A model generated the notes under the pieces. That model ran no database searches. It was not told the origin of the DNA and saw nothing but the letters and a program-made list of their open reading frames with translations. A stretch of 64,000 nucleotides of DNA from Pseudomonas wenzhouensis (GTDB taxonomy: Bacteria; Pseudomonadota; Gammaproteobacteria; Pseudomonadales; Pseudomonadaceae). Below, one piece after another: positions 4,116 to 28,734 of the stretch. Numbering within the stretch: position 1 is the first letter of the stretch; each line of letters starts with the position of its first letter. The translations under genes and the position numbers were made by a program. Where the stretch lies: positions 1,860,001 through 1,924,000 of the forward strand of contig NZ_CP072610.1 of NCBI RefSeq assembly GCF_021029445.1, in the 5' to 3' direction.

Positions 4116-4123
4116 GATGAAGC

Positions 4124-8083: not shown

Positions 8084-8111
8084 GGTCAGTACGGACGACC
8101 TGGGCGAATCT

Positions 8112-8882
8112 ATGAAAACAGTCATTCTGGCCGGTGGGTTGGGTACGCGGATCAGCGAAGAGTCTCACCTGCGGCCCAAGCCGATGATCGAGATAGGCGG
8201 CAAGCCGATCATCTGGCACATCATGAAGATCTACTCCCATTACGGCATCAACGATTTCGTGATCTGCCTGGGCTATAAGGGCTATCTGATCAAGGAGTAT
8301 TTCACCAACTACTTCCTGCATATGTCGGACGTGACCTTCGACATGGCGGAAAACCAGATGCACATTCACAACCGCCATGCCGAGCCGTGGCGTGTGACCC
8401 TGATCGATACGGGCGAGAGCACCGCCACAGGGGGGCGCCTCAAGCGCGTACGTGAGTACCTGGGTGACGAGACCTTCTGCCTGACCTACGGTGACGGCGT
8501 CGCCGACATCGACGTCCCGCAACTGATCGACTTCCATCGCAGTCACGGCAAGCTTGCGACTGTGACGGCCGTGCAGCCACCTGGCCGCTATGGTGCGCTG
8601 GACATACAGGGGCAGTGCGTTCAGGGGTTTCAGGAAAAACCGCAGGGTGATGGTGGCTGGATCAACGGCGGCTTCTTCGTGCTTGAGCCTGGTGTACTCG
8701 ATTACATCGAAGGTGATGAAACCACCTGGGAATACGAACCGATGCGCCAATTGGCCGAGCAAGGCCAGCTTATGAGTCACCTGCATCGCGGCTTCTGGCA
8801 GCCGATGGACACCCTGCGTGACCGCGTGCAGCTCGAAGATCGCTGGAAGACCGGTCAGGCGGAGTGGCGTGTATGGCCATGA
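8112..8882 (+). CDS. rfbF: Glucose-1-phosphate cytidylyltransferase
   Basis: Makes CDP-glucose from glucose 1-phosphate and CTP, the entry step to CDP-linked 6-deoxy and 3,6-dideoxy sugars. The N-terminus has the nucleotidyltransferase signature (VILAGGLGTRISEES, then RPKPMIEIGGKPI). GFQEKPQGDGGWINGGFFVL is the typical substrate-binding region. The length is 256 residues, normal for the family. The frame stays open upstream, but ATG 8112 begins exactly at the family start (MKTVILAGG). It overlaps rfbG, so the two are translationally coupled. Confidence 0.95.
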   Translation: MKTVILAGGLGTRISEESHLRPKPMIEIGGKPIIWHIMKIYSHYGINDFVICLGYKGYLIKEYFTNYFLHMSDVTFDMAENQMHIHNRHAEPWRVTLIDTGESTATGGRLKRVREYLGDETFCLTYGDGVADIDVPQLIDFHRSHGKLATVTAVQPPGRYGALDIQGQCVQGFQEKPQGDGGWINGGFFVLEPGVLDYIEGDETTWEYEPMRQLAEQGQLMSHLHRGFWQPMDTLRDRVQLEDRWKTGQAEWRVWP

Positions 8883-9940
8883 ATGCGGCGTTCTGGGCGG
8901 GGCGTCGAGTTCTGTTGACCGGGCATACCGGCTTCAAGGGCGGCTGGCTGGCACTGTGGCTCAAGGAACTGGGCGCTGAGGTCTATGGTTATGCCTTGCC
9001 GGCGCTTGCTGAACCGTCGCTTTGGCAGGCTGCGCGCCTGGCCGAGCGTGTGCCTGGAACCCTGGCCGATATCCGAGACGCTCAGCGCATCGCCGAGGCC
9101 GTGGCGACGTTCCGCCCAGAAGTCGTCCTGCACCTGGCGGCCCAGCCATTGGTGCGTGAATCCTACCGCGCGCCTGCCGAAACCTACGCCACCAACGTCA
9201 TGGGCACGGTCAATCTGCTGGAGGCACTGCGCCACTGCGGCAGCGTGCGCGCGGTGCTGGTGGTGACCAGCGACAAGTGCTATGAGAATCGCGAATGGCT
9301 CTGGCCGTACCGCGAAGGTGACGGTCTCGGTGGGCATGACCCTTACAGCAGCAGCAAGGCCTGTGTGGAGCTGCTGTGCGCCTCCTGGCGCGAATCGTTC
9401 CTGCGCGAGTCCGGCATCGCGCTGGCCACGGCCCGGGCCGGCAACGTGATCGGCGGTGGCGACTGGTCGGTCGATCGCCTGCTGCCCGATATCCTGCGTG
9501 CCTGGCAGGCCGGGCAGTCACTGACGCTGCGCTACCCGCAGGCCGTGCGCCCCTGGCAGCATGTGCTCGAACCGCTGCATGGCTATCTGTGCTTGGCGCA
9601 GGCGTTGGTCGAGCAGGGCGAGGCGGTGGCCTCGGCGTGGAATTTCGGCCCCGATAACGAGGGGCTGGTAAGCGTTGGCGAGCTGGTCGAGCGGCTCGCC
9701 CAGCGCTGGCCGGGTGAGGCGCGCTGGACGGTCGAGGCGAGTGGGCAACCGCACGAGGCGGGCCTGCTTGCGCTGGACTCCAGCCAGGCACGTGTTCGCC
9801 TGAACTGGCGCCCCCGCTGGACCTTGCAGCAGGCCATCGAACGAACCCTCGACTGGCACCAGGCCTGGCAGGCTGGCGAGGACATGCAGACATTCAGCCG
9901 CGCGCAGATCGCGGCCTATCAAGGCGAAATTCATGAGTGA
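8873..9940 (+). CDS. rfbG: CDP-glucose 4,6-dehydratase
   Basis: Converts CDP-glucose to CDP-4-keto-6-deoxyglucose with bound NAD. It is an extended SDR: the dinucleotide motif TGHTGFKGGW is near the N-terminus, and the catalytic pair is Tyr158 and Lys162 in DPYSSSKAC. GGAG (8861-8864) favours ATG 8873 over ATG 8879, which would overlap the rfbF stop as ATGA. The length is 355 residues. It overlaps rfbH by 8 bases. Partners: rfbF supplies its substrate and rfbH uses its product. Confidence 0.95.
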   Translation: MAMNAAFWAGRRVLLTGHTGFKGGWLALWLKELGAEVYGYALPALAEPSLWQAARLAERVPGTLADIRDAQRIAEAVATFRPEVVLHLAAQPLVRESYRAPAETYATNVMGTVNLLEALRHCGSVRAVLVVTSDKCYENREWLWPYREGDGLGGHDPYSSSKACVELLCASWRESFLRESGIALATARAGNVIGGGDWSVDRLLPDILRAWQAGQSLTLRYPQAVRPWQHVLEPLHGYLCLAQALVEQGEAVASAWNFGPDNEGLVSVGELVERLAQRWPGEARWTVEASGQPHEAGLLALDSSQARVRLNWRPRWTLQQAIERTLDWHQAWQAGEDMQTFSRAQIAAYQGEIHE

Positions 9941-11255
9941 ACAGACGGCGCAAGCGCTGCGTCAGCAGATCGCCGAGCTGGTGGAGCGTTATGCCGAACT
10001 GCAACTGGCACCGACCGCCTTCGAGGCTGGCCGCGATGCTGTGCCACCGTCCGGCAAAGTGATCGGCGCCGGTGAGCTGAAAAACATGACCGAGGCCGTA
10101 CTCGACGGCTGGCTGACCACCGGGCGCTTCAACGAGGCTTTCGAAAAGCGTCTGGCTCGCTATCTTGGGCGCCGCTGCGTGTTGACCACCAACTCCGGTT
10201 CCTCGGCCAATTTGCTGGCGTTCTCCGCGCTGACCTCGCCGCGTCTGGGCGAGCGGGCCATTCGCAAAGGCGATGAAGTGATTGGCGTGGCCGCTGGTTT
10301 TCCTACCACGGTCAACCCCATCCTGCAGTTCGGTGCGGTGCCGGTCTTCGTCGATATCGAACTGGGCACCTACAACATCGATCCGGCCTTGATCGAAGCG
10401 GCCATCGGGCCACGCACCAAGGCCATCATGCTAGCCCATACGCTGGGCAATCCGTTCAACCTCAAGGTCATCCGTGAACTCTGTGATCGCTATGACCTGT
10501 GGCTGATCGAGGATTGCTGCGACGCTCTCGGTTCGACCTACGAAGGTCGCCAGGTGGGCAGTTTCGGTGATATCGGCACGCTCAGTTTCTACCCGGCGCA
10601 TCACATCACCATGGGCGAGGGCGGGGCGGTGTTCACTGACTCGCCACTGCTCAAACGCATCGTCGAGTCGTTCCGCGACTGGGGCCGTGACTGCTATTGC
10701 GCGCCGGGTGAGGACAATACCTGCGGCAAGCGCTTCTGCTGGCAACTGGGTGATTTGCCGGAAGGCTACGACCACAAGTACACCTACTCGCACCTGGGCT
10801 ACAACCTGAAGATCACCGACATGCAGGCCGCCTGTGCGCTGGCGCAGATGGATCGCCTGGATGACTTCATCAAGGCGCGTAAGCGCAATTTTGCCTGGCT
10901 CAGTGAACGTCTGGCCGGCTGCGCCGAGCAACTGATCCTGCCGCAGGCCACGCCCGGCAGCGATCCCTCCTGGTTCGGTTTTCCGCTGACCATGCGTGAT
11001 GGTTGTGGTGTCGAGCGTGTCGATCTGCTGCGTTATCTGGACGAGCAGCGGGTCGGTACGCGTCTGCTGTTTGCCGGCAACCTGACGCGCCAGCCCTATA
11101 TGCAAAACCAGCAATATCGTGTGTCGGGTGAGCTGAAAGTCACCGACAAGGTGATGCGGGACACCTTCTGGATCGGTCTCTGGCCGGGGCTCTCCGAGGA
11201 TCATCTGGAGCACGCCGCGCGCCATCTGGAAACCTATGTACGGAGGCTGCGCTGA
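9933..11255 (+). CDS. rfbH: CDP-4-keto-6-deoxyglucose 3-dehydrase (E1)
   Basis: A PMP-dependent, iron-sulfur enzyme that removes the C3 hydroxyl in 3,6-dideoxyhexose synthesis. It belongs to the DegT/DnrJ aminotransferase fold, but the PLP lysine is replaced by histidine (His223 in YPAHHITMGEGG), the hallmark of E1. The four [2Fe-2S] cysteines Cys196, Cys254, Cys256 and Cys264 show the exact E1 spacing C-X57-C-X1-C-X7-C. E1 needs a ferredoxin-type reductase (E3, AscD/DdhD); none is encoded in this window. The length is 440 residues. Confidence 0.95.
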   Translation: MSEQTAQALRQQIAELVERYAELQLAPTAFEAGRDAVPPSGKVIGAGELKNMTEAVLDGWLTTGRFNEAFEKRLARYLGRRCVLTTNSGSSANLLAFSALTSPRLGERAIRKGDEVIGVAAGFPTTVNPILQFGAVPVFVDIELGTYNIDPALIEAAIGPRTKAIMLAHTLGNPFNLKVIRELCDRYDLWLIEDCCDALGSTYEGRQVGSFGDIGTLSFYPAHHITMGEGGAVFTDSPLLKRIVESFRDWGRDCYCAPGEDNTCGKRFCWQLGDLPEGYDHKYTYSHLGYNLKITDMQAACALAQMDRLDDFIKARKRNFAWLSERLAGCAEQLILPQATPGSDPSWFGFPLTMRDGCGVERVDLLRYLDEQRVGTRLLFAGNLTRQPYMQNQQYRVSGELKVTDKVMRDTFWIGLWPGLSEDHLEHAARHLETYVRRLR

Positions 11256-11947
11256 TGCGCGCCTACGTGCTCTGCGGTGGCTTCGGCACGCGTCTGCGCA
11301 GCGTAACGGACACGCAGAAGGCGCTGGTGCCGGTACATGGCGAGCCTTTCCTGGCGCGCGTGCTGCGGCAACTGGCGCGTGCCGGCGTCAGCGAAGCAGT
11401 ACTCTGCGCGCATTACCGCGCCGAGCAGGTCGCTGAACAACTGGCAGCTCTGGCGCAGGATGCCGGGCTGCAATTGATCTTGGTGGTCGAACCCAGCCCC
11501 ATGGGCACTGGCGGCGCGTTGCTCAATGCGCTGCGCGAGCAACCGCCACAGGGGCGGTATCTGGTGCTCAATGCCGACACCTTTGTCGATGCCGATGGTT
11601 ACGCGCTGATGGTGCAAGGGCAGGGCAGCGCGCTGCTAGGTGTGCAGGTGGATGACCGCAGCCGTTTCGGCAGTCTTGAGGTCGATGCCGGTGGCCAGTT
11701 GCGTGCGCTGTTGGAGAAGGGCCGCGAAGGGCCGGGCCTGATCAATGCGGGCGTCTACGCTTTCACCCGTGAAACGTTCGTGAGCACAGCCGTGCGTGCC
11801 TGTTCGATGGAGCAGGAACTGTTGCCTGAGTTGCTGGCAGGCGAAGCTGTGAGCGTCATCGAGTACAGCGGTCGCTTCATCGATATCGGCACGCCGGAAT
11901 CGCTTGAGCGCTATGCCAATGATTTTCGGATGGAACCTCAATCATGA
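11255..11947 (+). CDS. Sugar-1-phosphate nucleotidyltransferase, HddC-like
   Basis: A 230-residue single-domain nucleotidyltransferase with the signature CGGFGTRLR at the N-terminus, SPMGTGGALLNAL (base/phosphate binding) and VLNADTFVD (metal-binding Asp). It resembles heptose-1-phosphate guanylyltransferase HddC and MurNAc-1-phosphate uridylyltransferase more than glucose enzymes. It begins at TGATG on the rfbH stop and is followed by a sugar kinase with an ATGA overlap. Kinase plus nucleotidyltransferase suggests activation of a second sugar. The nucleotide and sugar are not deducible from sequence. Confidence 0.85.
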   Translation: MRAYVLCGGFGTRLRSVTDTQKALVPVHGEPFLARVLRQLARAGVSEAVLCAHYRAEQVAEQLAALAQDAGLQLILVVEPSPMGTGGALLNALREQPPQGRYLVLNADTFVDADGYALMVQGQGSALLGVQVDDRSRFGSLEVDAGGQLRALLEKGREGPGLINAGVYAFTRETFVSTAVRACSMEQELLPELLAGEAVSVIEYSGRFIDIGTPESLERYANDFRMEPQS

Positions 11948-13308
11948 GCCTGCTTGTGCAAACCCTCAGCATCCGCGAACAACAGAGCATCCTAGACGCC
12001 GTTGAATGCATCGAGGCTGGCGCCCTGCAGATCGCTTTCGTGGTGGACGATCACATGCGTCTGCTGGGCGTGGTCACCAACGGCGACGTGCGCCGCCACT
12101 TGCTGCAGGGCGGCAAGACGGACGAGCCGGTGACCGCCTGCATGAATGAGGAATTTCGTTCTGTGCGCATTGGCGCGCCGCGTGAGGATCTGCTCAAGAC
12201 CTTCGACCTGGGGTACATCGCTTTGCCAGGTCTGGATGAGCAGGGCCGCCTGGTGGAGGTGTACACCCGGCAGATGGCTGCCAGCGCCGAGGTGCCCGTG
12301 CTGGCCCGTGCCCGTGCCCCCGTGCGCATGAGTTTCTGTGGTGGTGGCGCAGACCTCACCTATTTCTTCATCGATCACTCGGCGGCCGTGCTCAGTTGCA
12401 CCGTCGGTCTGTATGCCCATGCCACGCTGATCCCGCGTGATGATGGGCGCATCAGCATCTACGCCGAGGATCTTGGCCGCGAAGAGCACTACAACTCCCT
12501 GGCCGAGTTGCTGGTCGCGCCGGAGAAGAGCCTGCTGGCCACCATCGTTGCAGTGATCAAGCCCAAGTACGGTTTTGATCTGTACCTGCGTTCGGACTTT
12601 CCCGTGGGCTCTGGCCTGGGTGGCTCATCGGCGGCGACTACCGCGACCATCGCCGTATTCAACGAGCTGCGTCAGGATCGCTGGAACACCTACGAGATCG
12701 CCGAGCTGGCGTTCCAGGCCGAGCGCCTGTGTTTCGGTATCGCCGGTGGCTGGCAGGATCAGTACGCCTCGGCCTTCGGCGGTTTCAACCTGATCGAGTT
12801 CGAGAACCAGCGCAATCTCGTCCATCCCATTCGCCTGGAAGACGCCATCCGCAACGAACTGGAGTCCTGCCTGGTGCTGTGCGACACCGGCATCTCCCAT
12901 GACTCCGGGCGCCTGCACGAATTGCAACGCGAGGAAATCGCGGCCGAGCTGTCGCAAACCGAACTGCTCAGCGCCAGCGTGACCCTGTGCCGGCGCATGC
13001 ACCACTTCCTCATTCGCGGCGAGCTCAAAGCCTTCGGCACCTGCCTAGACGAAGCCTGGCAATTGAAGAAACGCTTTTCCTCGGCCATCAGTGATGGCCG
13101 ACTCGACGACATCTATGCAGCCGCCCTTGCTGCCGGAGCCTGTGGCGGCAAGCTGCTGGGCGCTGGCGGCGGCGGCTTCTTCCTGTTTTACGTCCAACCC
13201 CAGCATCGCCAACGCGTGTTCAACGCCGTCGGCGCGTTGGGCTGTCAGACCCAGAACTTCCGCTTCGAATCAAGCGGCGTGACCTCATGGCGAACAAAAA
13301 TCCAATGA
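11944..13308 (+). CDS. CBS-pair/GHMP sugar kinase fusion
   Basis: Residues about 1-120 form two CBS repeats (AFVVDDHMRLLGVVTNGDVRR, and a second ending EQGRLVEVYTR), which in other proteins bind adenine nucleotides. From about 125 the protein is a GHMP kinase of the HddA/heptose-phosphate kinase type: RAPVRMSFCGGGADL at the start, ATP-binding GSGLGGSSAATTA, and C-terminal GGKLLGAGGGGFF. Total 454 residues. CBS pairs are known fused to nucleotidyltransferases such as PtmE of the legionaminate pathway; fusion to a GHMP kinase is unusual. No heptose isomerase (GmhA) is present, so the substrate is open. Confidence 0.85.
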   Translation: MSLLVQTLSIREQQSILDAVECIEAGALQIAFVVDDHMRLLGVVTNGDVRRHLLQGGKTDEPVTACMNEEFRSVRIGAPREDLLKTFDLGYIALPGLDEQGRLVEVYTRQMAASAEVPVLARARAPVRMSFCGGGADLTYFFIDHSAAVLSCTVGLYAHATLIPRDDGRISIYAEDLGREEHYNSLAELLVAPEKSLLATIVAVIKPKYGFDLYLRSDFPVGSGLGGSSAATTATIAVFNELRQDRWNTYEIAELAFQAERLCFGIAGGWQDQYASAFGGFNLIEFENQRNLVHPIRLEDAIRNELESCLVLCDTGISHDSGRLHELQREEIAAELSQTELLSASVTLCRRMHHFLIRGELKAFGTCLDEAWQLKKRFSSAISDGRLDDIYAAALAAGACGGKLLGAGGGGFFLFYVQPQHRQRVFNAVGALGCQTQNFRFESSGVTSWRTKIQ

Positions 13309-15212
13309 CCTCATTTCATATCGATGGCTTCCCGCTTGGCGGCGAGCGTGTCTACGTCATCGCCGAAGTCGGCAATAACCACAACGGTTCGCTGGCGCTG
13401 GCTCGGCAACTGGTCGATGCCGCCATCGAAGCCGGTGCCGATTGCGTCAAGTTCCAGTTGCGCAATCGCGAGGCGCTTTACCGGCGCAAAGCCGATGGCT
13501 CGCGCGCCGAGGATCTGGGCGTCGAGTACATTCAGGATCTGCTGGATAAGGTGGAACTCAGCCTCGAAGAACACCGTGAGGTGCGCGCCTATTGCGCGCA
13601 GAAAGGCATCACCTACCTGTGCACGCCCTGGGACGAACCCAGCGTTGACGCGCTGGCCAGCTTCGATGTCGCGGCGTTGAAGATCGCCTCGGCGGATCTA
13701 TGCAACCCTTACCTGATCGCCAAGGCGGCCAGCCTGGGCAAGCCGCTGATCCTGTCCACTGGCATGTCTTTCGAACATGAGATCGTGCGCGCTATCGAGC
13801 AGCTCAAGGTGCTTGGCACGCCGTTCGCCCTGCTGCATTGCAACAGCGCTTATCCGGCGCCCGAGTCGGATATCCAGCTCGGTTATCTGCGGCGCTTGCA
13901 GGAGCTGCATGGCCTGATTGGCTATTCCGGCCACGAGCGTGGCATCGCCATTACCCTAGGTGCGGTGGCGCTGGGCGCCAAGCTGGTGGAGCGCCACATC
14001 ACGCTGGATCGCGGGATGGAGGGGCCGGATCACCTGGCCAGCCTGGAGCCGGGCGAGTTCCGCCAACTGGTCGACGGCATCCGCCAACTGGAGCTGGCCT
14101 TGCCCTGGCAAGGGCCGGGTCGCCATGCCAGCCAGGGCGAACTGCTCAACCGTGAAAACCTCGGCAAGAGCGTGATCGCTGCGTGCGATATCGCCCGTGG
14201 CACCGTGATGGAAGCGTCGATGCTGCGTATCGCCAGCCCTGGCCAGGGCCTGCCGCCGTATCGTTTGCCGGAGCTGCTGGGCAAACCGGCCGGGCGCGAT
14301 ATCGCTCTGGGCGATTTCCTTTTCGACAGCGACCTTAACGAGCAACAGACCGAGGAGAAATTGTCGTTCGAATTGCCGATCCGCTGGGGTGTACCCGTGC
14401 GCTATCACGACTTCCTCGACTACCGCCGACGGATCAGCCCGAACCTGTTCGAGTTCCATCTGTCCTATCGTGACCTCAGCCTCAAGCCGCAGCCGTTTCT
14501 CGCCGAGGTCGACTGTTCGCGCCTGGTGGTGCACGCGCCGGAGCTGTTCGAGAACAGCGAACTACTGGATCTGGCCTCGGACGACCGGGCCTATCGCCAG
14601 CGCTCGATCGACAACCTGCAACGGGTAGTGGACGCCACCCTGCAGATTGGTGAGTTTTTCCCCAAAGCCGATGCGCGGCTGATCGTCGCCAATATTGGGG
14701 GGTTCTCCGCCGACGAACCGCGCCCGCTGGTTATGCGCCCTGAACTCTACGAGCGCTTCCACGAAGCCTGCCGCCAGGTGGACTTCGCCGGCACCGAACT
14801 GATCCCGCAAAACATGGCGCCGTTCCCCTGGCACTTCGGCGGTCAGCGCCACCAGAACATCTTCATGATGCCCGAGGAACTGGCCGCCCAAGCGCGCGAG
14901 CACGGTCTGCGCCTATGCCTGGATCTGTCGCACCTGCAAATGACCTGCTTCCACTTCGGTCTCGATTTCCAGCAAGCGCTGGCTCTGCTGCTGCCGCACT
15001 CGGCGCACCTGCATGTGGCCGATGCCAAGGGCACCAATGGCGAAGGCGTGCTGATGGGCACCGGCGATATCGACTGGCCGGCCACCTGGGCGCAGCTTCG
15101 CCAGCACTCTGAGGTGAGCTTCATCCCCGAGGTCTGGCAGGGGCACAAGGATCATGGTGCCGGCTTCTGGTCGGCGTTGGACTTTCTGATGGGCCTGGAG
15201 GGGCGTGACTGA
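13305..15212 (+). CDS. NeuB-type sialate synthase fused to a TIM barrel
   Basis: Residues about 1-265 are a NeuB-family aldolase (VYVIAEVGNNHNGSLALARQ; CVKFQLRN; KIASADL; ILSTGMS; GYSGHERG), which condenses phosphoenolpyruvate with an aldose to give a nonulosonate. About 285-345 is a SAF-like antifreeze domain. From about 355 to 635 lies a second barrel of the xylose isomerase/AP-endonuclease-2 superfamily (RLVVHAPELF, LCLDLSHLQM, HLHVADAKG, FIPEVWQGH). Free NeuB proteins are about 330-350 residues, so this is a fusion. No CMP-sugar synthetase is in the window. The start could instead be ATG 13287; 13305 gives the ATGA overlap seen throughout this operon. Confidence 0.88.
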   Translation: MTSFHIDGFPLGGERVYVIAEVGNNHNGSLALARQLVDAAIEAGADCVKFQLRNREALYRRKADGSRAEDLGVEYIQDLLDKVELSLEEHREVRAYCAQKGITYLCTPWDEPSVDALASFDVAALKIASADLCNPYLIAKAASLGKPLILSTGMSFEHEIVRAIEQLKVLGTPFALLHCNSAYPAPESDIQLGYLRRLQELHGLIGYSGHERGIAITLGAVALGAKLVERHITLDRGMEGPDHLASLEPGEFRQLVDGIRQLELALPWQGPGRHASQGELLNRENLGKSVIAACDIARGTVMEASMLRIASPGQGLPPYRLPELLGKPAGRDIALGDFLFDSDLNEQQTEEKLSFELPIRWGVPVRYHDFLDYRRRISPNLFEFHLSYRDLSLKPQPFLAEVDCSRLVVHAPELFENSELLDLASDDRAYRQRSIDNLQRVVDATLQIGEFFPKADARLIVANIGGFSADEPRPLVMRPELYERFHEACRQVDFAGTELIPQNMAPFPWHFGGQRHQNIFMMPEELAAQAREHGLRLCLDLSHLQMTCFHFGLDFQQALALLLPHSAHLHVADAKGTNGEGVLMGTGDIDWPATWAQLRQHSEVSFIPEVWQGHKDHGAGFWSALDFLMGLEGRD

Positions 15213-16369
15213 TGGCACGCTCAATGCTGCCTGAAGCCAGTTGCCCTATCTGTGCCGCGCCCGCGGATGGCGTGCTGGAGTTGCACTTGGCCGAGCGCAG
15301 ATGGTTGCCCAGCACTATCGCTGTGGCATCCTGCGCCGCCTGCGACTTCGCCTTCGTTTGTCCGGTCGACGCCGAGAATTACGCGAACTATTACGCCGAG
15401 ACCACCAACGACCTGCTTTCGGTGAGCAACCCCAGCGAGACGGAGCAGCGGCGCTTCGACACCCAGGCTGGCTTCTTGTCGTCACTGCTGTCCGAAGCTG
15501 CTCCGAAGCGGGTGCTGGATATCGGCTGCGGTAGCGGTGGCCTGCTCCATACCCTGCAGCGCGCCTTCCCTCAGCATAGCTACCACGGGGTCGACCCCAA
15601 CACGGTCGTTAGTGCGGCGCACCAAGGCGTCACGTTCAGCCGCAAACTGGACGATTCGACGCAGCCATTCGACCTGATCATTCTGTCCCATACACTGGAG
15701 CATGTCGTCGACCTCGCGGTCTTTTCTTCGGTGTTAGAGGTGCTGGCAGCGGACGGCTCTCTCTATGTTGAAGTGCCCGATGCCTCGCGCTACGCCGATT
15801 TCCCTCGCCGGGAGTACCTCTATTACTTCGATCGCCTGCACATAAACCACTTCAGCATGGCGTCGCTGGAGAAGCTGCTGGCAGGCTGGGGGCTCGCCCT
15901 GAACTGGTCCAGCTGCCACGACTTCCCGTACAAGGATGGCCAGCTCTACCCGGCCCGCGCCATCCTGGCTTCCCGCCAGGCCCCCACAGTGCCTCTGCTT
16001 CTTGAGCTGAAAGAGCCGCTGCTTGCGGCGCTGGAGCGCTATCGACAGGCCGAACGGGACAAGACGCGGTACTGGCAGGCACGCCTGGCGGCGTTTCCTC
16101 AGATCCTGGTCTATGGCTTCGGCGACAATTTCTTCCGCGCCAGGGCGGCAGGTGGTCCGTTGTCCGAGCTGAATATCCTGGCGGTGATCGACCGCCGCTG
16201 GCGAGACCTGAATGAATCCCGGCATGCCGCCGACTATTCGTTCATGGGCCTGGGCCAGGCCGCCGAGCAGCACTCACAGATCCCCGTGGTCGTGGCCGTC
16301 TCATGGCAGGCGGAAACCATTGCCGAAACCCTATCTGATGCCGGTTTTGCCCAGGTTTTCATCCTGTAG
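15212..16369 (+). CDS. SAM methyltransferase with N-terminal zinc-binding motif
   Basis: A class I SAM-dependent methyltransferase of 385 residues. The N-terminus carries two Cys pairs (CPIC and CAAC) that probably bind zinc, as in sugar C-methyltransferases. The SAM motif is VLDIGCGSGGLLHTL, followed by FDLIILSHTLEHV. A C-terminal domain of about 150 residues (VYGFGDNFFRA) has the Rossmann-like look of the C-methyltransferase tail domain. It starts at TGATG on the preceding stop. It may methylate the island sugar; C- versus O-methylation is undecided. Confidence 0.8.
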   Translation: MARSMLPEASCPICAAPADGVLELHLAERRWLPSTIAVASCAACDFAFVCPVDAENYANYYAETTNDLLSVSNPSETEQRRFDTQAGFLSSLLSEAAPKRVLDIGCGSGGLLHTLQRAFPQHSYHGVDPNTVVSAAHQGVTFSRKLDDSTQPFDLIILSHTLEHVVDLAVFSSVLEVLAADGSLYVEVPDASRYADFPRREYLYYFDRLHINHFSMASLEKLLAGWGLALNWSSCHDFPYKDGQLYPARAILASRQAPTVPLLLELKEPLLAALERYRQAERDKTRYWQARLAAFPQILVYGFGDNFFRARAAGGPLSELNILAVIDRRWRDLNESRHAADYSFMGLGQAAEQHSQIPVVVAVSWQAETIAETLSDAGFAQVFIL

Positions 16370-16417
16370 CTGGCCTTGTTCGCAACCGTACATAGAGATA
16401 ATGAAGAAGGACATCAA

Positions 16418-18238: not shown

Positions 18239-18244
18239 GCGGCC

Positions 18245-21405: not shown

Positions 21406-22268
21406 GCCGTGAGCTGATAGCCCGGCATTGCATTTGCTGTGGCGGCGAGCAACTGCAACGTTCTTCGGCGGTGCTGATGCCCTTCGTTGCGCATCGCGTA
21501 TTCGGCCATGAACCTCTTGAGATCACTGCTGATTGGGGCTTGCGCGATCTGCGCCAAGGCATGGCCTATACGCTTTGCAATTCACTGCAATGCCAGGAGT
21601 GCGGTGTCCTGTTTCTGGATTACCGCTTTACCGATGAGCAAATGGCGGCGCTTTATGCGGGGTATCGTGACGAGCGATACAACGCCGAGCGTGAGCGCTA
21701 CGAGCCAGGCTACACTGCGCTTACAAAAAGCTTCGAGGGGCGGGCTGCCTACATTTCGGATATCGAAGCCTGGCTTGCACCGCACCTGCCTGCAGCTCCA
21801 GCGGTATTGGACTGGGGCGGTGCGACAGGTCTCAATACGCCTTTGCGCGGGCGTGGAGGCTTGCACCATATTCACGATATCTCGGATGTTGGTCTGGTTG
21901 CTGGTGCTCAGAGAGCGGATGCGCTCAAGTTTGGGCAGCAGCACTATGACTTGGTGGTTTGCAGCCAGGTGCTAGAGCACGTACCTGCGCCACTTGATTT
22001 GATTAGCCAGATTGTCCCGATATTGTCAGCCGAGACCTTGTTCTATCTTGAAGTTCCTCTTGAAATCTTGATGCGCGAGCACCCTGATAGTTTGCAATTG
22101 GCGCCATTGAAACGTTACTGGCATGAGCACATCAATTTTTTCTCTAAAGTGTCACTGTATCGAATGATTGAGCGTGTTGGGCTGAGGGTGTTGGACAGCC
22201 ACATTCTCCCCGTTGAGTTGCGGGGGCGCAAAGGTTCTGTAATGGGTGTCTTGGCGAGATTGCCCTGA
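21399..22268 (+). CDS. SAM methyltransferase with Cys-rich N-terminus
   Basis: A 289-residue protein. The N-terminal Cys pairs (CICC and CQEC) suggest a zinc ribbon. The SAM-binding segment (VLDWGGATGLNTP) is a variant of the usual DxGxGxG motif, and VVCSQVLEHVPAP is the post-motif region. ATG 21399 overlaps the SDR3 stop at 21403 and is chosen for that coupling; a longer frame upstream lies within SDR3. It is the last gene of the first island transcript, and base composition becomes AT-richer from here. Confidence 0.75.
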   Translation: MVSRELIARHCICCGGEQLQRSSAVLMPFVAHRVFGHEPLEITADWGLRDLRQGMAYTLCNSLQCQECGVLFLDYRFTDEQMAALYAGYRDERYNAERERYEPGYTALTKSFEGRAAYISDIEAWLAPHLPAAPAVLDWGGATGLNTPLRGRGGLHHIHDISDVGLVAGAQRADALKFGQQHYDLVVCSQVLEHVPAPLDLISQIVPILSAETLFYLEVPLEILMREHPDSLQLAPLKRYWHEHINFFSKVSLYRMIERVGLRVLDSHILPVELRGRKGSVMGVLARLP

Positions 22269-22363
22269 TGAACACTGGCATGACTCTGTCCTCAACCAGG
22301 GCAGCCGACCTTCTGCGTACTCCTGTATATAGTGGTTTTTTGGGGCGCCGATGGTTTTTTTGA
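22268..22363 (+). other. Micro-ORF (31 codons) coupled to the preceding gene
   Basis: An open frame begins at TGATG on the preceding methyltransferase stop, the same coupling used elsewhere in this operon, and runs 31 codons to TGA at 22361. The short product ends GFLGRRWFF. It may be the remnant of a decayed gene or a small leader peptide. Nothing identifies it. Confidence 0.25.
22328..22353 (+). promoter_or_regulatory. Candidate FliA (sigma-28) promoter within the island
   Basis: TATAG (22328-22332), a 14-base spacer, then GCCGATG (22347-22353). The fliC promoter in this window is TAAAG-N14-GCCGATA, so this site differs at one position in each element with identical spacing. It would drive the gene block starting at 22488. 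It lies in a T-rich gap with three TGGTTTTTT repeats (22333, 22352, 22379). Match by eye. Confidence 0.4.
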
Positions 22364-22491
22364 GCAAACTTATGTACGTGGTTTTTTCTCTGCGCTGCCA
22401 TGCTTATAGCGCCTTCGGGACTGTGCTCTATGTATTAGCAACGAAATCAGGCCAAGGTAGCAGTGCTTTTGCAGCAAGGAGTATGGAATGA
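22351..22491 (+). other. Micro-ORF (46 codons) ending at the next start codon
   Basis: An open frame from ATG 22351 runs 46 codons and ends in ATGA, overlapping the start of the methyltransferase at 22488. The product begins with a hydrophobic stretch (VFLSKLMYVVFSL) and has no recognised motif. Together with the 31-codon frame it fills the 219-base gap 22269-22487. It could be decayed coding sequence; there is no good ribosome binding site. Confidence 0.2.
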
Positions 22492-23129
22492 GTGAAGTGA
22501 GCAGTGAGGCGAATGGCAACTATTGGGATGATTTCTACAGCTGCATTCAAGTAGGTGCACCGACCTATCCATCGCAGTTTGCTGCCTTCGCGATAAACGA
22601 GTTCTCCGGGGTGGATGGAGTGATTGAGTTCGGTTGCGGTAATGGCCGCGATAGTGATTTCTTTGCGGCTCATGGCTTCAATCTGCTGGCGGTTGATGCT
22701 TCGGTCGAGGCCATCGAGCTGTGTCAGGCACGTAACCGCTTCCGTCACGCAAAATTTGTTCAGAGTCGTTCCGTTGATGTTAGGGAAGAGGTTGCGGCCT
22801 TTCTTGTCGGGAGAAGCAAAGTCGCCGTGTATGCACGTTTCTTCCTGCATGCCGTGGAGGAGTGCGAAGAGCGTGCTTTGCTCGTTCTGCTGGGTACACT
22901 GCTGCCTAGCGGTAGTCGTTTATTCCTTGAATATCGGACGATAGAGGATGCTGATCAGGAGAAAGTGTTTGGGGACGGGCATTTCAGGCGCTATTTGGAT
23001 CACCGTGCTGTTCTTGGGCGAATCGAATCCGTCGGTTTTCGTGTCGAGTACGAAGTAGAGGGGCGTGGCTTTGCCAAGTATGGCGAAGAGGATGCTTTGG
23101 TCGGTCGCTGCGTTGTGGTTAAGGGGTGA
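22488..23129 (+). CDS. Small class I SAM methyltransferase
   Basis: A 213-residue, single-domain methyltransferase. The SAM motif is VIEFGCGNGRDSDFFAAHG, and the second acidic strand is LLAVDASVEAIEL. AAGGAG (22476-22481) precedes the ATG. It starts a second island block (methyltransferase, LicD-like protein, epimerase) with lower GC than its surroundings. The target is unknown; O- or N-methylation of the flagellin sugar is likely given the context. Confidence 0.75.
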   Translation: MSEVSSEANGNYWDDFYSCIQVGAPTYPSQFAAFAINEFSGVDGVIEFGCGNGRDSDFFAAHGFNLLAVDASVEAIELCQARNRFRHAKFVQSRSVDVREEVAAFLVGRSKVAVYARFFLHAVEECEERALLVLLGTLLPSGSRLFLEYRTIEDADQEKVFGDGHFRRYLDHRAVLGRIESVGFRVEYEVEGRGFAKYGEEDALVGRCVVVKG

Positions 23130-23131
23130 AC

Positions 23132-24049
23132 ATGATTCCAGATTTCCTGAAAGACAAACGACTGGTCCTTTTTGGCGCGGGGCGTGTGGCATTGAGGTTT
23201 TTCTCAATCTTCCCCGAATTGAATGTTATTGCGTTTGCCGATAATGATTCCAAGAAACAAGGGACTTTAGTCGGCCATGTGCCCATTATCGCGCCGGAGA
23301 ATATTGCTTCACTGGATTACGATCTGGTGATGATTAGTACTGGCTGGTTGGATAGTATCTCCTCACAGTTGCGCGACCTCGGTATTCCAGCAGAGCGAAT
23401 CATTCTTCCGCCAAAGAACCTGTTGGCTGTGAACGGTGGCGTCAAACCGTTTTCCGATGCGGTTACCAAGGCATTGGCTGTTGAAGTGATGTCGGGCGTC
23501 TCTCGCTTTTCTGCTGCACACGAAATTCCGATCATGCTGGATTTCGGTACATTGCTGGGGGCGGTTCGTGACGGTGACCTGATTGCGTGGGATGACGATA
23601 TTGATTTATCCATCAATGATGTCGATTTTCCGCTGATAGTCGAGCATTTGGATGAGCTGAGGTCGTTCTTTCCTGATAGAGAGGGGCTTGTCGTCGACAT
23701 TTCCGTCATCAGATCGGAGGGGGTCGTGACCGGGGTCCTTACCACATTCAAAAGTGCTCCTGACTCAACGCCCATCGTGCCCTTCGAAGTCGGTTTCGTA
23801 CGGCGGGTCTTTGAAGCTGGCAAGTCGATCACCAAGTCGGCGGGGCCCGAGTTCATCGCGCCTGAACAACATTTTCGCGCGCTGGACCGGATGCAATTTC
23901 TCGGTGCACAGTTTTATACCCCTCACGACGTCCAGGGTTATCTGACATTCGTCTACGGTGACTGGCAGACGCCGAAGCAGAACACCACGCTCGCCGAGTA
24001 TCCGACGCAGGAACCAGAGTATCGGGAAATTTCGATCTCGAAGTATTGA
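23132..24049 (+). CDS. LicD-family protein with N-terminal Rossmann-like domain
   Basis: A 305-residue protein of two parts. About 1-105 (LVLFGAGRVALRFF, then VIAFADNDSKKQGT) is a Rossmann-like module often found beside capsule and glycan enzymes. About 115-300 is a LicD domain with the diagnostic IMLDFGTLLGAVRDGDLIAW and Asp154-Asp155-Asp156. LicD proteins are nucleotidyltransferase-fold enzymes that transfer phosphate-linked groups, e.g. phosphocholine, onto glycans. Start ATG 23132 has AAGGGG 5 bases upstream. It suggests a phosphodiester-linked substituent on the flagellin glycan. Confidence 0.82.
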   Translation: MIPDFLKDKRLVLFGAGRVALRFFSIFPELNVIAFADNDSKKQGTLVGHVPIIAPENIASLDYDLVMISTGWLDSISSQLRDLGIPAERIILPPKNLLAVNGGVKPFSDAVTKALAVEVMSGVSRFSAAHEIPIMLDFGTLLGAVRDGDLIAWDDDIDLSINDVDFPLIVEHLDELRSFFPDREGLVVDISVIRSEGVVTGVLTTFKSAPDSTPIVPFEVGFVRRVFEAGKSITKSAGPEFIAPEQHFRALDRMQFLGAQFYTPHDVQGYLTFVYGDWQTPKQNTTLAEYPTQEPEYREISISKY

Positions 24050-24054
24050 ACACC

Positions 24055-25107
24055 ATGACTACAACAGGCTTTTCCGGGTCACCCGGAGAAAAGAGTGACT
24101 TGTACGGTGTTCTCGCCGGTCTCGGCCTGGCTGAGTCCCTGGCTGGTCGTCACTTGTTGTTGACCGGAGGAACCGGGTTCTTCGGTCGTTGGCTGCTGGC
24201 CCTGTTGGCAGAACTCAATCGCCAGGGGGCGGGGATTGAAGTGACGCTTACGTCACGCAATCCTGCGACTTTTTTATCCAGCCATCCTGCCTATCTGGAG
24301 TGCAAATGGCTCAACTGGCTACCCGGTGATATCCGTGAGCTGCGGAACCTGCCTGGGCGTCCTGTTGACCTGATTCTGCACGCTGCGGCCGATACCTCAG
24401 CAACTGCCCATACCCGTCCGTTGGAGTTGTTCGACACTATTGTCGAGGGTGCTCGACGGGTGTTTGATCTCGCCGTGCGTTGTGATGGCGCGCGTGTCCT
24501 GATCACTGGCTCCGGTGCTCAATATGGCGCTATTCCCGATACTGTCGGCGTACCGGAAAGTTATCCTGGCGCTTGCATGAGCAACAGCGTAGGTAGCACT
24601 TACGGTGAGGCAAAGCGAGCCCAGGAAACCTTGGGTGCAATTTATGCGGAGAGCTATGGCATTGATATCATCATGACCCGTTGCTTTGCTTTTTCCGGCT
24701 ACGGACTTCCCTTGAATGGCCATTTTGCCATCGGCAACTTCGTGCGTGATGCTCTTTATGCCCAAGAGGTGGTGCTCAACTCAAATGGTACGGCGGTACG
24801 CAGCTATTTGCATGGTGCCGATCTGGCCGTTTGGCTGTTGGCATTGCTGGTCCGTGGAAAAGCGGGGCAGGCATACAATGTCGGGTCAGACGAGGCAATC
24901 ACCATCGCTGAGCTGGCGTACCGAGTTGTGGCCCGGGTGGCACCGGAGAAGGTTGTGCGAATTATGGGGCGTCCAGAGAGTTCGGGCCGATCATTCTATG
25001 TGCCGGACATCACACGGGCACGAGCGCTCGGATTGGATGTCTGGACGACGCTGGATGAGTCCATCGACAGTATGGTGCGTTGGGCGGAGAACTCTAAACG
25101 TACGTGA
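24055..25107 (+). CDS. NAD-dependent epimerase/dehydratase
   Basis: An extended SDR of 350 residues with LLLTGGTGFFGRWLL near the N-terminus, Tyr183 and Lys187 (STYGEAK), and a C-terminal NVGSDEAITIAELAYRV typical of nucleotide-sugar epimerases and dehydratases. The SDR core begins about 30 residues in, after a short leader. ATG 24055 follows the LicD stop by 5 bases. It acts on a nucleotide sugar of unknown identity. A 99-base gap follows before the glycosyltransferase gene. Confidence 0.85.
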   Translation: MTTTGFSGSPGEKSDLYGVLAGLGLAESLAGRHLLLTGGTGFFGRWLLALLAELNRQGAGIEVTLTSRNPATFLSSHPAYLECKWLNWLPGDIRELRNLPGRPVDLILHAAADTSATAHTRPLELFDTIVEGARRVFDLAVRCDGARVLITGSGAQYGAIPDTVGVPESYPGACMSNSVGSTYGEAKRAQETLGAIYAESYGIDIIMTRCFAFSGYGLPLNGHFAIGNFVRDALYAQEVVLNSNGTAVRSYLHGADLAVWLLALLVRGKAGQAYNVGSDEAITIAELAYRVVARVAPEKVVRIMGRPESSGRSFYVPDITRARALGLDVWTTLDESIDSMVRWAENSKRT

Positions 25108-25206
25108 TCGGTTGGCCCGTATTTGCTACTGAAGTGGAACTGGGTAGTTCAGGAAAATCTGATCCGACTATTCGCCAAATTAAATTAGTTACGAGAGGTA
25201 GAGGCG

Positions 25207-28200
25207 ATGCGTGAACTGTTCTCCAAGCGCCCGCAGCCATATTACATCTATGCCCCCGATTATCGGCGCAGCTCTGCTGGGGTTAGGGTCATGCACATGC
25301 TGTGCGATGCACTCAATCGTTCGGGCCAGGAGGCCTATGTCACTGCCAACGTGCTCAATCCCGAGTTGATTACTCCGCAGCTTACCGATGGGGTTATCGA
25401 ATTACACCGTAAGCAAGGGTTGGAACCGATAGTGGTTTACCCTGAGATTATCGACGGTAACCCGCTGAAGGGTAATACCGTTGTGCGCTACTTGCTTAAC
25501 CAAGTGGGGTTTGTCGAGGGGCAGGGGCTATACGGTGAGGATGATTTGCTGTTCGCCTATGTACGCGGGCTTTTGAGACCGGGTATGGGGCAGGACAGGG
25601 TCCTTCACTTGCCGCCTATCGACCTCAGAATATTTTGCCCTCCAGAAGACCCAGGCAAACGCGTTCAGGGAAAGGTCTGTTATTACCAAGGGCGGCGTGG
25701 GCAGGCTCAGATAGATCCTGCACTGCTGCCCCCGGACGCGATAGAAATTACCCCCACCTTTCCTGAATCCTGGGAAGGGCTTGTTGACCTTTTCCAGCAA
25801 TGTGAATTCTTCTATTTGGGGGAGCGCTCGGCATTGGCCGGCGAGGCTGTGCTGTGCGGGTGCTTGAGTATCGTTTTGCCTGGGCAATGGGCTCCTGAAA
25901 AGTTATCCGAGCATGAGTACAGTAGTTATGGAACAGCTTGGGGTAATACTCCAGAGGAAATTCAGCGCGCCAGAGAAACGATCTCCTTGTTGCGGGAGCG
26001 GCAATTACAGCATCAGAAAGACTTCTGGCCGGCTTTGGATCACTTCATCGAAGTTACTCAGAGTTTTGCCAATGCGCGTGCTGCCACTGCCAGCAAGCGC
26101 ACGCTGCAGGCCTGGCTGGGTGAACGCGTGCCCACCAACGCCCAGCATCGTCTGATAACCGCGCATCTGCAGGCGAGTACCGCGCCGACTCTTGGCGTGC
26201 TGGTGCTTGATCGTGACGGTGATGCCGCGCGTTTGGGTAAGACAATCAAGAGCCTGAGCCTGGAGAACAACCTCTATGCGGCGCTGCGTATCGTCGCCCT
26301 GACCCCTCAGGATATGCCGCAGACCAGTGCCGAAAACAAGCTGCGTTTTCTGCGTATCGATGCCGAGCAGCCACTGACGGGCATCAATCTAGCTGTGCGT
26401 GAGGGTGGCTTCGACTGGTTTATGATCGTGGAAGCGGGCTGTGAGTTCACCACCAGCGGCCTACTGATCGCTGCGCTTGATCTGATCAGTGCACCGGGAT
26501 GCCGTGCCGTCTACGGCGACGAAGTGGTGCGTCAGGGGACCAATGATCTGGGCCTGGCTTTGCGCCCAGGGTTGAATCTGGACATGCTGCTCAGCCTGCC
26601 CAATGCCCTGGCTAGCCACTGGTTGTTCAACTGCCAGACTTGGCTGGACATGGGCGGCTTCCGTAACGAGGCCGGGCAGGCGTTCGAACTGGACTACCTG
26701 TTGCGCCTGGTCGAAGACAAGGGTCTGGAAGAGCTGGGCCATATCAGTGAACCCATACTGATTCGTGAGGCGTCTCCACTACGCGACAGCCCCGATGAGC
26801 GTGCCGTCATTCAGCGTCATTTGGTCGCGCGTGGGTTCCCGGATGCCACTGTCACCTCACGTCTGCCAGGGCACTACGATCTTGACTATGGGGTGGGCGA
26901 TGGCGCTCTGGTGAGCATTATCGTGCACACCCAGGGCAGCATGGCGAAGGCGCGCCGCTGCATGGAGACCATTCTCGAAAAAACCACCTACCGAGCCTAC
27001 GAAGTGCTGCTGCTGGATCAGAGTGGCGACGACGCGGCTTTGCAAGGCTGGCTGACCGGTGTCGAACAGCTGGGTACGGATTCGATTCGCGTATTGCGTT
27101 TCCCCGAGGCGTTGTCGCTGACGCAGGTAAGCAACCAGGCTGCAGGGCAGGCCAGAGGCGAGCTGCTGTTGTGGCTGGATGTCGGTAGCGCCGTGCTGGA
27201 TTCCGATTGGTTGCATCAGCTGGTCAACCATGCTGCTCGCCAGGAAGTTGGAGCCGTGGGCGCCAAGTTGTTGGCGGGGGATCGCACGATTCGCCATGCC
27301 GGTGTGATCCTGGGGCTTAACGGGCCGGTAGGCCGTGTATTCGTCGGTCAGCCGTTGGAAGCCCCCGGTTATCTCCAGCGCCTTCTGGTCGACCAGGACT
27401 ACGCTGCTGTCAGTGGCAAATGCCTTATGTTGCGTAAGAGCCTGTTCCTCGACGCCGGCGGTTTCGATGAGACCCCTGACCTGGCACCCTGGGCTTATAT
27501 AGATCTTTGCTTGCGCCTGCATTCGGCAGGTTTCCTGAACGTATGGACGCCGCGTGCGTCGCTGCTCATCAATGAAGAGCCGGAGCCGGCTGTCACGGTT
27601 GAGCAGGAAGATGCCATGTACGCGCGCTGGTTGCCGTTGCTGGCTCGCGACCCTGCCTACAACCCCAACTTCTCGTTGGGCTCGGGCGATGAGTTCAGCA
27701 TCGCGCCAAGCAAGATGAACTGGCGTCCTCTTTCATCCTGGCGTCCGGTGCCGACGATTCTGGGGCATGCGGCAGACCAGCAAGGTTGCGGCCATTATCG
27801 GGTGATCCAGCCGTTGGAGGCGATGGATCGCGAGGGTCTGATAGACGGAACGCTGCTCTGGAGCCAGCTGTCCGTGACGGAGCTGGAGCGGTTCGCGCCC
27901 GACAGCATCTTATTGCAACGCCAGGTGGGCGAGTCTCAGATCGAAGGCATGCGCCGCATGAAAGCGTTTTCCAATGCCTTCAAGGTCTTCGAGCTGGATG
28001 ACTATCTACCCAACCTGCCGATGAAGAGCATCCACAAGGCCCATATGCCCAAGGATATTGTTCGGACGCTACGCCGTGGCTTGAGCTACGTCGATCGCTT
28101 CGTGGTTTCCACTGAGCCGCTGGCCGAAGCCTTCGCTGGTCTGCATGACGACATTCGGGTGGTTCACAACCGTCTCGATACGCGCTGGTGGCGAGGTTTG

Positions 28201-28734
28201 AACAGCCAGCGTCGTTGTTCTGCCAAACCCCGGGTGGGTTGGGCCGGTGGTGCCAGCCATACCGGCGACCTCGAAATGATCGCCGACGTGGTCAAGGAGC
28301 TGGCCAGCGAGGTGGAATGGGTGTTCTTTGGCATGTGCCCGGACAAGCTGCGCCCCTATGTGCATGAGTACCACCCCGGTGTGCCCATCCGGGATTACCC
28401 GGCGAAGCTGGCCCAGCTCAATCTGGATCTCGCTCTCGCTCCGGTGGAGCAGAACCTGTTCAACGACTGCAAGAGCAATTTGCGTCTGTTGGAGTACGGT
28501 GCCTGCGGCTTCCCGGTGGTTTGCAGCGAGGTGCTCTGCTACCAGGGTGATGGCTTGCCCGTGACGCTGGTGAAAAACCGTTTCAGAGATTGGGTGGAGG
28601 CCATTCGCATGCACCTTGCCGACCTCGACGAGACCGCGCGTCTTGGTGATCGTCTGCGCGGTGCGGTGCAGCGTGACTGGATGCTCGAAGGCGATAACCT
28701 GCTGCTCTGGCGTGAGGCCTGGACCGCGGACTGA
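25207..28734 (+). CDS. Large multidomain flagellin glycosyltransferase, FgtA-like
   Basis: An 1175-residue cytoplasmic protein next to fliC, the position of fgtA in P. aeruginosa. Four modules can be seen: an N-terminal GT-B-like part (about 1-290, YYIYAPDYRRSSAGVRVMHM); a degenerate GT-A-like part (about 320-550); a GT2 domain (about 565-810, VSIIVHTQGS, LLLWLDVGS, GGFDET); and a C-terminal GT-B domain (about 850-1165, GCGHYRVIQPLEAM, VGWAGGASHTGDLEM, SNLRLLEYGACGFP). It is the only glycosyltransferase in the island, so it must attach the glycan and may also extend it. GAGAGGTAGAGG precedes the ATG. Confidence 0.88.
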   Translation: MRELFSKRPQPYYIYAPDYRRSSAGVRVMHMLCDALNRSGQEAYVTANVLNPELITPQLTDGVIELHRKQGLEPIVVYPEIIDGNPLKGNTVVRYLLNQVGFVEGQGLYGEDDLLFAYVRGLLRPGMGQDRVLHLPPIDLRIFCPPEDPGKRVQGKVCYYQGRRGQAQIDPALLPPDAIEITPTFPESWEGLVDLFQQCEFFYLGERSALAGEAVLCGCLSIVLPGQWAPEKLSEHEYSSYGTAWGNTPEEIQRARETISLLRERQLQHQKDFWPALDHFIEVTQSFANARAATASKRTLQAWLGERVPTNAQHRLITAHLQASTAPTLGVLVLDRDGDAARLGKTIKSLSLENNLYAALRIVALTPQDMPQTSAENKLRFLRIDAEQPLTGINLAVREGGFDWFMIVEAGCEFTTSGLLIAALDLISAPGCRAVYGDEVVRQGTNDLGLALRPGLNLDMLLSLPNALASHWLFNCQTWLDMGGFRNEAGQAFELDYLLRLVEDKGLEELGHISEPILIREASPLRDSPDERAVIQRHLVARGFPDATVTSRLPGHYDLDYGVGDGALVSIIVHTQGSMAKARRCMETILEKTTYRAYEVLLLDQSGDDAALQGWLTGVEQLGTDSIRVLRFPEALSLTQVSNQAAGQARGELLLWLDVGSAVLDSDWLHQLVNHAARQEVGAVGAKLLAGDRTIRHAGVILGLNGPVGRVFVGQPLEAPGYLQRLLVDQDYAAVSGKCLMLRKSLFLDAGGFDETPDLAPWAYIDLCLRLHSAGFLNVWTPRASLLINEEPEPAVTVEQEDAMYARWLPLLARDPAYNPNFSLGSGDEFSIAPSKMNWRPLSSWRPVPTILGHAADQQGCGHYRVIQPLEAMDREGLIDGTLLWSQLSVTELERFAPDSILLQRQVGESQIEGMRRMKAFSNAFKVFELDDYLPNLPMKSIHKAHMPKDIVRTLRRGLSYVDRFVVSTEPLAEAFAGLHDDIRVVHNRLDTRWWRGLNSQRRCSAKPRVGWAGGASHTGDLEMIADVVKELASEVEWVFFGMCPDKLRPYVHEYHPGVPIRDYPAKLAQLNLDLALAPVEQNLFNDCKSNLRLLEYGACGFPVVCSEVLCYQGDGLPVTLVKNRFRDWVEAIRMHLADLDETARLGDRLRGAVQRDWMLEGDNLLLWREAWTAD

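Follow-up and report, generated by a model that had tools for sequence, protein, structure and literature searches.

An island of 17 co-directed, mostly overlapping genes on the plus strand (A to Q, positions 8112-28734) lies between the flagellar genes flgL and fliC of Pseudomonas wenzhouensis, within a stretch of 64,000 nucleotides of contig NZ_CP072610.1 (positions 1,860,001 to 1,924,000), referred to here as the window. Open reading frame (ORF) listing and searches of Pfam and NCBIfam identified enzymes of cytidine diphosphate (CDP) sugar synthesis (RfbF, RfbG and RfbH), a NeuB-family synthase fused to a TIM barrel (NeuB-TIM, gene F), a YerE-like thiamine diphosphate (ThDP) carboligase (gene H), several methyltransferases and short-chain dehydrogenases/reductases (SDRs), and a giant glycosyltransferase. 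These results bear out every gene family and the span named in a preliminary description of this DNA, which had counted about 16 genes, and its placement of the region at a flagellin locus agrees with the flgL and fliC flanks and the large multi-domain glycosyltransferase. We propose that the genes of the island probably form a single assembly line, which makes a long-branched sugar for flagellin. The features are as follows.

6238..7926, plus strand: flgL, left flank (named by gene order and recurrence, no family search)
8112..8882, plus strand: A, rfbF, glucose-1-phosphate cytidylyltransferase (TIGR02623, 472.8 bits, cut-off 300.25; ATG at 8112, longer ORF from 7974)
8864..9940, plus strand: B, rfbG, CDP-glucose 4,6-dehydratase (TIGR02622, 498.9 bits, cut-off 278.45)
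9933..11255, plus strand: C, rfbH (E1), CDP-4-keto-6-deoxyglucose-3-dehydrase (NF011936, 743.5 bits, cut-off 423)
11255..11947, plus strand: D, HddC-like sugar-1-phosphate nucleotidyltransferase (PF00483; NF049965, 115.9 bits, under the cut-off of 300)
11944..13308, plus strand: E, CBS-GHMP sugar kinase, HddA-like (PF00288, PF08544, PF00571; NF049969, 225, under the cut-off of 600; PDB 4n3o, E 4e-57)
13287..15212, plus strand: F, NeuB-SAF synthase fused to a sugar epimerase/isomerase TIM barrel (PF03102, PF08666, PF01261; TIM fold in the predicted model)
15212..16369, plus strand: G, methyltransferase with N-terminal Cys motif (PF13489)
16376..18238, plus strand: H, YerE-like ThDP carboligase with GDG ThDP motif (PF02776/00205/02775; likely start 16418; PDB 8rph)
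18245..18994, plus strand: I, SDR 1 (PF13561)
18973..19824, plus strand: J, TIM-barrel sugar isomerase-like protein (PF01261)
19796..20566, plus strand: K, SDR 2 (PF13561)
20563..21405, plus strand: L, SDR 3, distantly PtmA-like (PF13561; NF050062 PtmA, 106.1 of 350)
21399..22268, plus strand: M, methyltransferase with Cys motif (PF13489; longer ORF from 21336)
22488..23129, plus strand: N, small methyltransferase (PF08242)
23126..24049, plus strand: O, LicD-family protein (PF04991)
24046..25107, plus strand: P, extended SDR, candidate reductase/epimerase of a branched CDP-sugar (PF01370)
25207..28734, plus strand: Q, giant multi-domain glycosyltransferase, 1175 amino acids (PF00535)
28982..30490, plus strand: fliC flagellin, likely target (PF00669, PF00700; longest ORF from 28922)

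With gene starts chosen by hand, overlaps of 1-29 bases are seen at 11 of the 16 gene borders, and L and M share 70 bases, or 7 with the start of M at 21399. Two gaps are of 6 bases each, and larger ones are found only at M-N (219) and P-Q (99); because gaps exceed 6 bases only at these two borders, we read A-M as one operon. The GC content is 0.58-0.67 across A-L versus 0.52-0.55 across M-O, a drop that suggests a later addition of the M-O part. From 22269 to 24049 it falls to ~0.52, and the 219-base gap precedes gene N. Methyltransferase-LicD pairs resembling N-O recur in other islands (52-65% and 36-63% identity), as if a cassette had moved. Downstream of the island the order is fliC-flaG-fliD. 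In RfbH, His replaces the Lys of aminotransferases and there is a Cys-rich motif, both of which we take to be E1 hallmarks. The predicted model of Q, of low confidence (mean pLDDT, the predicted local distance difference score, 69), matches tandem GT-A and GT-B enzymes and points only to several glycosyltransferase-like domains. P matches many extended SDRs with no single function singled out, and a PDB search with G gave no match. Among PHROGs, F has no family, H falls into a family of unknown function, and the end of Q matches a phage glycosyltransferase.

Recurrence was assessed in a Pseudomonas draw of 398 genomes, including the source genome (G000), and in a separate phylum draw of 398 genomes. 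The searches of the genus with F and H evaluated no more than three first-look candidates in each genome; first-pass ORF calls took antisense ORFs in GC-rich stretches, and the later gene-presence tables come from tblastn. The full-length fusion is present in 19/398 Pseudomonas genomes (own included), and A, B, C, D, E, F, H, P and Q occur together in all 19, which rules out that the set is unique to this genome. The core was also found in Burkholderia, Herbaspirillum, Thiorhodococcus and Accumulibacter. Since the set recurs in other genomes, chance assembly is excluded. The preliminary description had proposed a synteny search and considered the combination unrecognised: the search returned the same nine-gene core from other Pseudomonas and the core from other genera, so the combination is not a one-off. 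What stands is that the open-licence literature (subscription papers being mostly outside it, and the islands of P. aeruginosa and P. syringae outside the comparison) yielded no characterised locus with this set, nor any paper tying NeuB to YerE-like donors.

Flagellar genes adjoin the set in 16 of the 19 genomes, in 13 between flgL and fliC and in 3 after fliD. Genes G, M, N and O and the I-J-K-L block vary; G has no counterpart in the close relative L013, and the full I-J-K-L block occurs, among the 19, only in G000, G008 and G165. Two extra Q-like matches lie between flgL and rfbF in G192, G271, G172, G336, G106, G238 and G124, which suggests further flagellin glycosyltransferases. In L016 and L048 (P. 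viridiflava and P. syringae GAW0119) and L022 the 40 kb covered contain the nine-gene core, with its Q-type glycosyltransferase, but no flagellar genes.

The best PDB match of H is 8rph (E 5e-108), the YerE-like enzyme JanthE (PMC12188165; this and the other papers are cited from excerpts of their text), so the label of YerE type originally given to H holds. Homologues of H (E<=1e-90) were found in 31/398 Pseudomonas genomes. All 31 carry an RfbH over cut-off, in single copy, on the same contig and within ~6 kb of H, and because of this association CDP-4-keto-3,6-dideoxyglucose is, as judged from sequence comparison, well supported as the acceptor. In our island RfbF, RfbG and RfbH all exceed the NCBIfam equivalog cut-offs, as a YerE-type pathway calls for, and in the phylum draw RfbH over cut-off is found somewhere in 21 of 23 ThDP genomes. 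P is present in 38/45 ThDP-bearing fusion loci and adjoins rfbH in many non-Pseudomonas loci.

NeuB synthases make 2-keto-3-deoxy acids, and the product of F would therefore belong to the donor class of H. A NeuB stands beside H in 27 of the 31 genomes (19 fusions and 8 divergent NeuBs). No NeuB is near RfbH in any of 14 RfbH genomes without H, three of which have NeuB elsewhere (Fisher P 1.8e-8; a recheck of the 14 by PF03102 gave the same result).

Partners of sialic-type pathways were sought around the fusions and around ordinary NeuBs, the latter being the 19 next-best Pseudomonas rows of the fusion search. All 19 ordinary-NeuB genomes encode a PF02348 protein no more than 3.6 kb from NeuB, versus 0/19 fusion genomes, where the nearest on the same contig are at 113 to 213 kb (G124, G049, G008). 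The source genome has one strong PF02348 match, KdsB-like by our reading, and one weak match; it has no PF01973 (Maf) match at E<=0.001. Maf is strong in 17/19 controls, in 16 of them on the contig of NeuB, and two controls lack a strong match. Weak Maf matches occur in 5/19 fusion genomes, three of them over cut-off, on other contigs or 1.3 Mb away.

Across the genome collection, the NeuB-TIM query returned 77 loci, of which 58 were counted as fusions. A ThDP gene without NeuA is found in 45 of these and NeuA without a ThDP gene in 8, while none has both and 5 have neither (P 6.7e-7); the ThDP gene of L038 was counted from broken pieces only, and the NeuA queries were taken from L049 and L054, which are themselves among the eight NeuA loci. 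Four of the five loci with neither are on contigs <8 kb, and the fifth is cut 3.6 kb past the gene. The 19 other NeuB loci have NeuA in 14 (same threshold), a ThDP gene in one (L068) and neither in four. NeuB-TIM with a NeuA-like gene and no ThDP gene in the fetched stretch was seen in L049, L050, L051, L052, L054, L055, L058 and L028, among them loci of Arcobacter, Helicobacteraceae, Bradyrhizobium and others, and NeuA follows a SIS_2 isomerase in three such loci. These NeuA-type loci should make a cytidine monophosphate (CMP)-ulosonic acid of a new type, with no N-acetyl group.

The NeuB part of F belongs to the synthase family (PF03102), and the fusions retain 13 active-site positions (one locus is truncated in this part). 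Positions are numbered after Nme NeuB, by what we take to be the correct mapping of the alignment. The Glu134-like position is Asp in the fusions and also in 7/20 ordinary rows (one row being the partial fusion L046). Arg314 binds the N-acetyl group. Its position is Arg in 30/30 ordinary NeuBs (19/19 other NeuB loci and 11/11 Pseudomonas controls), Ser in 59/59 fusion sequences, Phe in 4/4 NeuB-cupin proteins, and Val or Ile in 4/4 short NeuBs; in the alignment, 4ipi and 4ipj do not have the residue of 1xuu here. The NeuB-cupin and short NeuBs also lack an Asp that is present in both the fusions and the ordinary NeuBs. Because Ser replaces Arg314 in the fusions, the substrate of F likely has no N-acetyl group. 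With no nearby NeuA, no Maf and the Arg314 position changed, we reject a pathway of legionaminic or pseudaminic type. The profile of the TIM domain gave weak PDB matches only, the best being MJ1311 (9e-07).

These observations bear on an alternative in which F and H serve two separate sugars: H would use pyruvate for a CDP-yersiniose-like sugar and F would supply an independent nonulosonic sugar transferred alone. YerE prefers pyruvate (PMC12247030), and F is after all a NeuB with its active-site residues. We nevertheless consider two sugars unlikely, as no CMP-ulosonate synthetase or Maf is near the fusion in 19/19 genomes, the source genome has only the KdsB-like strong PF02348 match and no PF01973, ThDP gene and NeuA are mutually exclusive in the 58 loci, the N-acetyl-binding Arg is lost, and NeuB accompanies H rather than RfbH alone.

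The single assembly line that we favour would run as follows. RfbF, RfbG and RfbH, by family assignment, would convert glucose-1-phosphate to CDP-4-keto-3,6-dideoxyglucose, with a ketone at C4; the reductase partner of RfbH is not in the island. The barrel of NeuB-TIM may interconvert sugars to yield an aldose, which the NeuB half would condense with phosphoenolpyruvate to a 2-keto-3-deoxy acid. The kinase E and the nucleotidyltransferase D might prepare the aldose or activate a further sugar. From the linkage, mutual exclusion and co-evolution of the genes we infer that H decarboxylates this keto acid and joins the remainder to the ketone at C4; the product would be a branched CDP-sugar that bears a tertiary alcohol. 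P may reduce or epimerise the product, and the three methyltransferases, three SDRs, second TIM protein and LicD protein would decorate the sugar. Finally, given the position of the island, Q would transfer it to FliC, perhaps after other sugars. The branched glycan foreseen in the preliminary description is thus retained as a branched-chain sugar, but its mixture of enzymes becomes a single pathway, with NeuB as a putative keto-acid maker instead of a sialic-acid-type synthase. By calculation, the reduced branched sugar from an n-carbon aldose is C(n+8)H(2n+16)O(n+5), with residue masses of 264.12 to 384.16 Da for n=3-7 in steps of 30.01; applied to acetaldehyde, this calculation yields yersiniose, C8H16O5.

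ThDP loci without the fusion have other potential keto-acid makers. In Pseudomonas, they carry NeuB-cupin (L117-L120) or a short NeuB (L121-L124), and four have no NeuB: the cluster of L125 (G246) includes a 4-hydroxy-2-oxovalerate aldolase of DmpG type, which exceeds the TIGR03217 cut-off, and an acetaldehyde dehydrogenase, and L126-L128 have an HpcH-like protein (PF03328, 31.5 bits in L126, cut-off 25). The phylum draw gave 23 further ThDP genomes, and the neighbourhoods of 19 were fetched (not G650, G460, G487 and G507): NeuB is seen in 7, DmpG in 2, an HpcH-like protein in 5, a NeuB ORF of NeuB-cupin size on another contig in 3, and none in 2. NeuB-cupin, called by a family scan of L117 and by tblastn elsewhere, was seen in ten loci (L117-L120, L132-L136 and L140) next to a ThDP enzyme whose cofactor motif is SDG.

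In a tree of 50 hand-picked ThDP rows (the placement of L146, a long branch, is unsure), the five donor labels require 5 changes, where the minimum is 4 and the shuffled mean 23.6. NeuB-cupin and short NeuB form single, fully supported groups. JanthE falls together with the enzyme of L125, a DmpG-type locus (100/100), and not with H. A rare CDG motif is common to JanthE, L125, L149 (DmpG) and L147 (no donor gene seen), and the DmpG-type L146 has GDG. The L125 cluster (3984-15741, minus strand) reads E3-rfbF-rfbG-rfbH-ThDP-ThDP-epimerase with DmpF/DmpG-like genes so that this Pseudomonas seems to carry an erwiniose-type cluster. Of all enzymes in the tree, the second ThDP enzyme of L125 is the one most closely related to JanthE.

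We tentatively suggest a modular rule, by which YerE-like ThDP ligases with RfbFGH would take their branch from the adjoining 2-keto-acid synthase, be it NeuB-TIM, NeuB-cupin, short NeuB, DmpG or HpcH-like. This is quite possible, although we would hesitate to call it probable, and the same joint standing covers the corollary that JanthE would use a DmpG-type 4-hydroxy-2-oxo acid. Under such a rule, the NeuBs concerned would make no sialic-type sugar and would be unsuitable as markers of nonulosonic acids.

Several observations weigh against the assembly line or the rule. The clearest hole in the pathway model concerns RfbH, for which no E3 reductase partner was found within the fetched stretches of the 58 fusion loci; candidates in the source genome are weak (29-31% identity). 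They are a reductase read as benC-like by its neighbours and a ferredoxin reductase adjacent to what is presumably ubiD, with no equivalog over cut-off. The model has no need of D, though D is found in 47/58 and E in 51/58 fusion loci. In the phylum draw only 14/23 ThDP genomes have an over-cut-off RfbH on the contig of H, and L132, L133 and L144 have NeuB beside H and no RfbH in the fetched stretch. The NeuB of L068, a locus with a ThDP gene, is not a fusion and retains the Arg. The I-J-K-L block also occurs with NeuA-type fusions, which leaves its pathway step unsure, and the 40 kb covered in G114, G154 and G049 (3/19) lack flagellar genes. As to donors, the HpcH-like proteins of L126-L128 sit 9-10 kb from H, and no keto-acid maker was seen in the ThDP loci L141 and L147. 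The NeuB-TIM group of the tree is single but weakly supported (81/48), the HpcH and DmpG labels (3 and 2 changes) are not single groups, and clustering of donor labels also follows from common descent.

The product of F might also be a polyhydroxy acid attached to a sugar as an acyl group, by amide or ester, with H using another keto acid. The sfm genes of S. oneidensis, which include NeuB, a ThDP enzyme and an ATP-grasp protein, are needed for normal flagellin modification, and the outer unit there is nitrogen-free (PMC3765264). Such an acyl role is improbable here: Pfam and NCBIfam searches of the 17 genes found neither an ATP-grasp protein nor any other acyl ligase, and RfbFGH would be left unexplained. 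Least likely of all is that the island serves a lipopolysaccharide (LPS) O-antigen or core sugar and is beside fliC by chance, for although LicD is common in surface glycans, the three copies named above show no flagellar genes within the 40 kb covered and three of the four NeuB-less ThDP loci carry ABC-transporter-like genes (read as wzm/wzt without family search), flagellar genes stand beside 16/19 fusion islands, 8/8 NeuB-cupin or short-NeuB islands and 0/4 NeuB-less ones.

NeuB genes are usually taken as markers of sialic-type sugars; if our reading is true, a whole class of them makes something else. The assembly-line model turns an odd gene list into a testable pathway with a checkable mass series for flagellin glycopeptides, and it would explain many similar clusters of unassigned product. 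It also offers candidate natural substrates for YerE-like enzymes such as JanthE, which are wanted as tertiary-alcohol catalysts.

Among known systems, the legionaminic and pseudaminic pathways that reportedly modify flagellin in Campylobacter share with the island a NeuB-family synthase and a distantly PtmA-like SDR; unlike those loci, the island has no NeuA and no Maf, Arg314 is lost, and rfbFGH and a ThDP enzyme are present. The YerE/CDP-yersiniose A pathway of Yersinia pseudotuberculosis is similar in its RfbF/G/H acceptor route and in a YerE-like ThDP carboligase acting at the C4 ketone. It uses pyruvate as donor and its product goes into LPS, whereas the island has NeuB-TIM beside the ThDP gene and a flagellin position, and ddhD, which we take to be the E3 partner of the yersiniose pathway, has no equivalent in the island. 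Homologues of ddhA-D, yerE and yerF have been described in the O-antigen locus of Pseudomonas WCS417 (PMC4509608).

The YerE-like enzymes ErwE (erwiniose) and MMAR_2332 (caryophyllose) take hydroxylated 2-keto acid donors longer than pyruvate, but their products are O-antigen or lipooligosaccharide sugars, and a NeuB donor maker was not encountered in the excerpted description (PMC12247030). JanthE, the closest solved relative of H, has a CDG motif in contrast to the GDG of H, and its natural substrates are stated as not yet identified (PMC12188165); the excerpt of an Oxalobacteraceae O-antigen paper has nothing on its locus.

The S. oneidensis operon sfmABCDE (NeuB, ThDP enzyme, SDR, methyltransferase and ATP-grasp protein) resembles the island, by description and not by protein sequences, in having NeuB beside a ThDP gene in a flagellin-modification operon and a methylated, nitrogen-free outer unit (C9H16O7, up to two methyls, no structure given in that paper); it differs in having no rfbFGH, an ATP-grasp gene instead, and an outer unit carried on nonulosonic acid (PMC3765264). 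By our own calculation, a NeuB product from a C4 aldose (C7H12O7) would give C9H16O8 on decarboxylative addition to pyruvate, C9H18O8 on reduction and C9H16O7 on amide formation with loss of water, a formula that other routes could yield as well. A second corollary of the modular rule, as tentative as the rule itself, is that the Shewanella unit may be just such a NeuB keto acid from a C4 sugar, joined to pyruvate by the ThDP enzyme, reduced and amide-linked.

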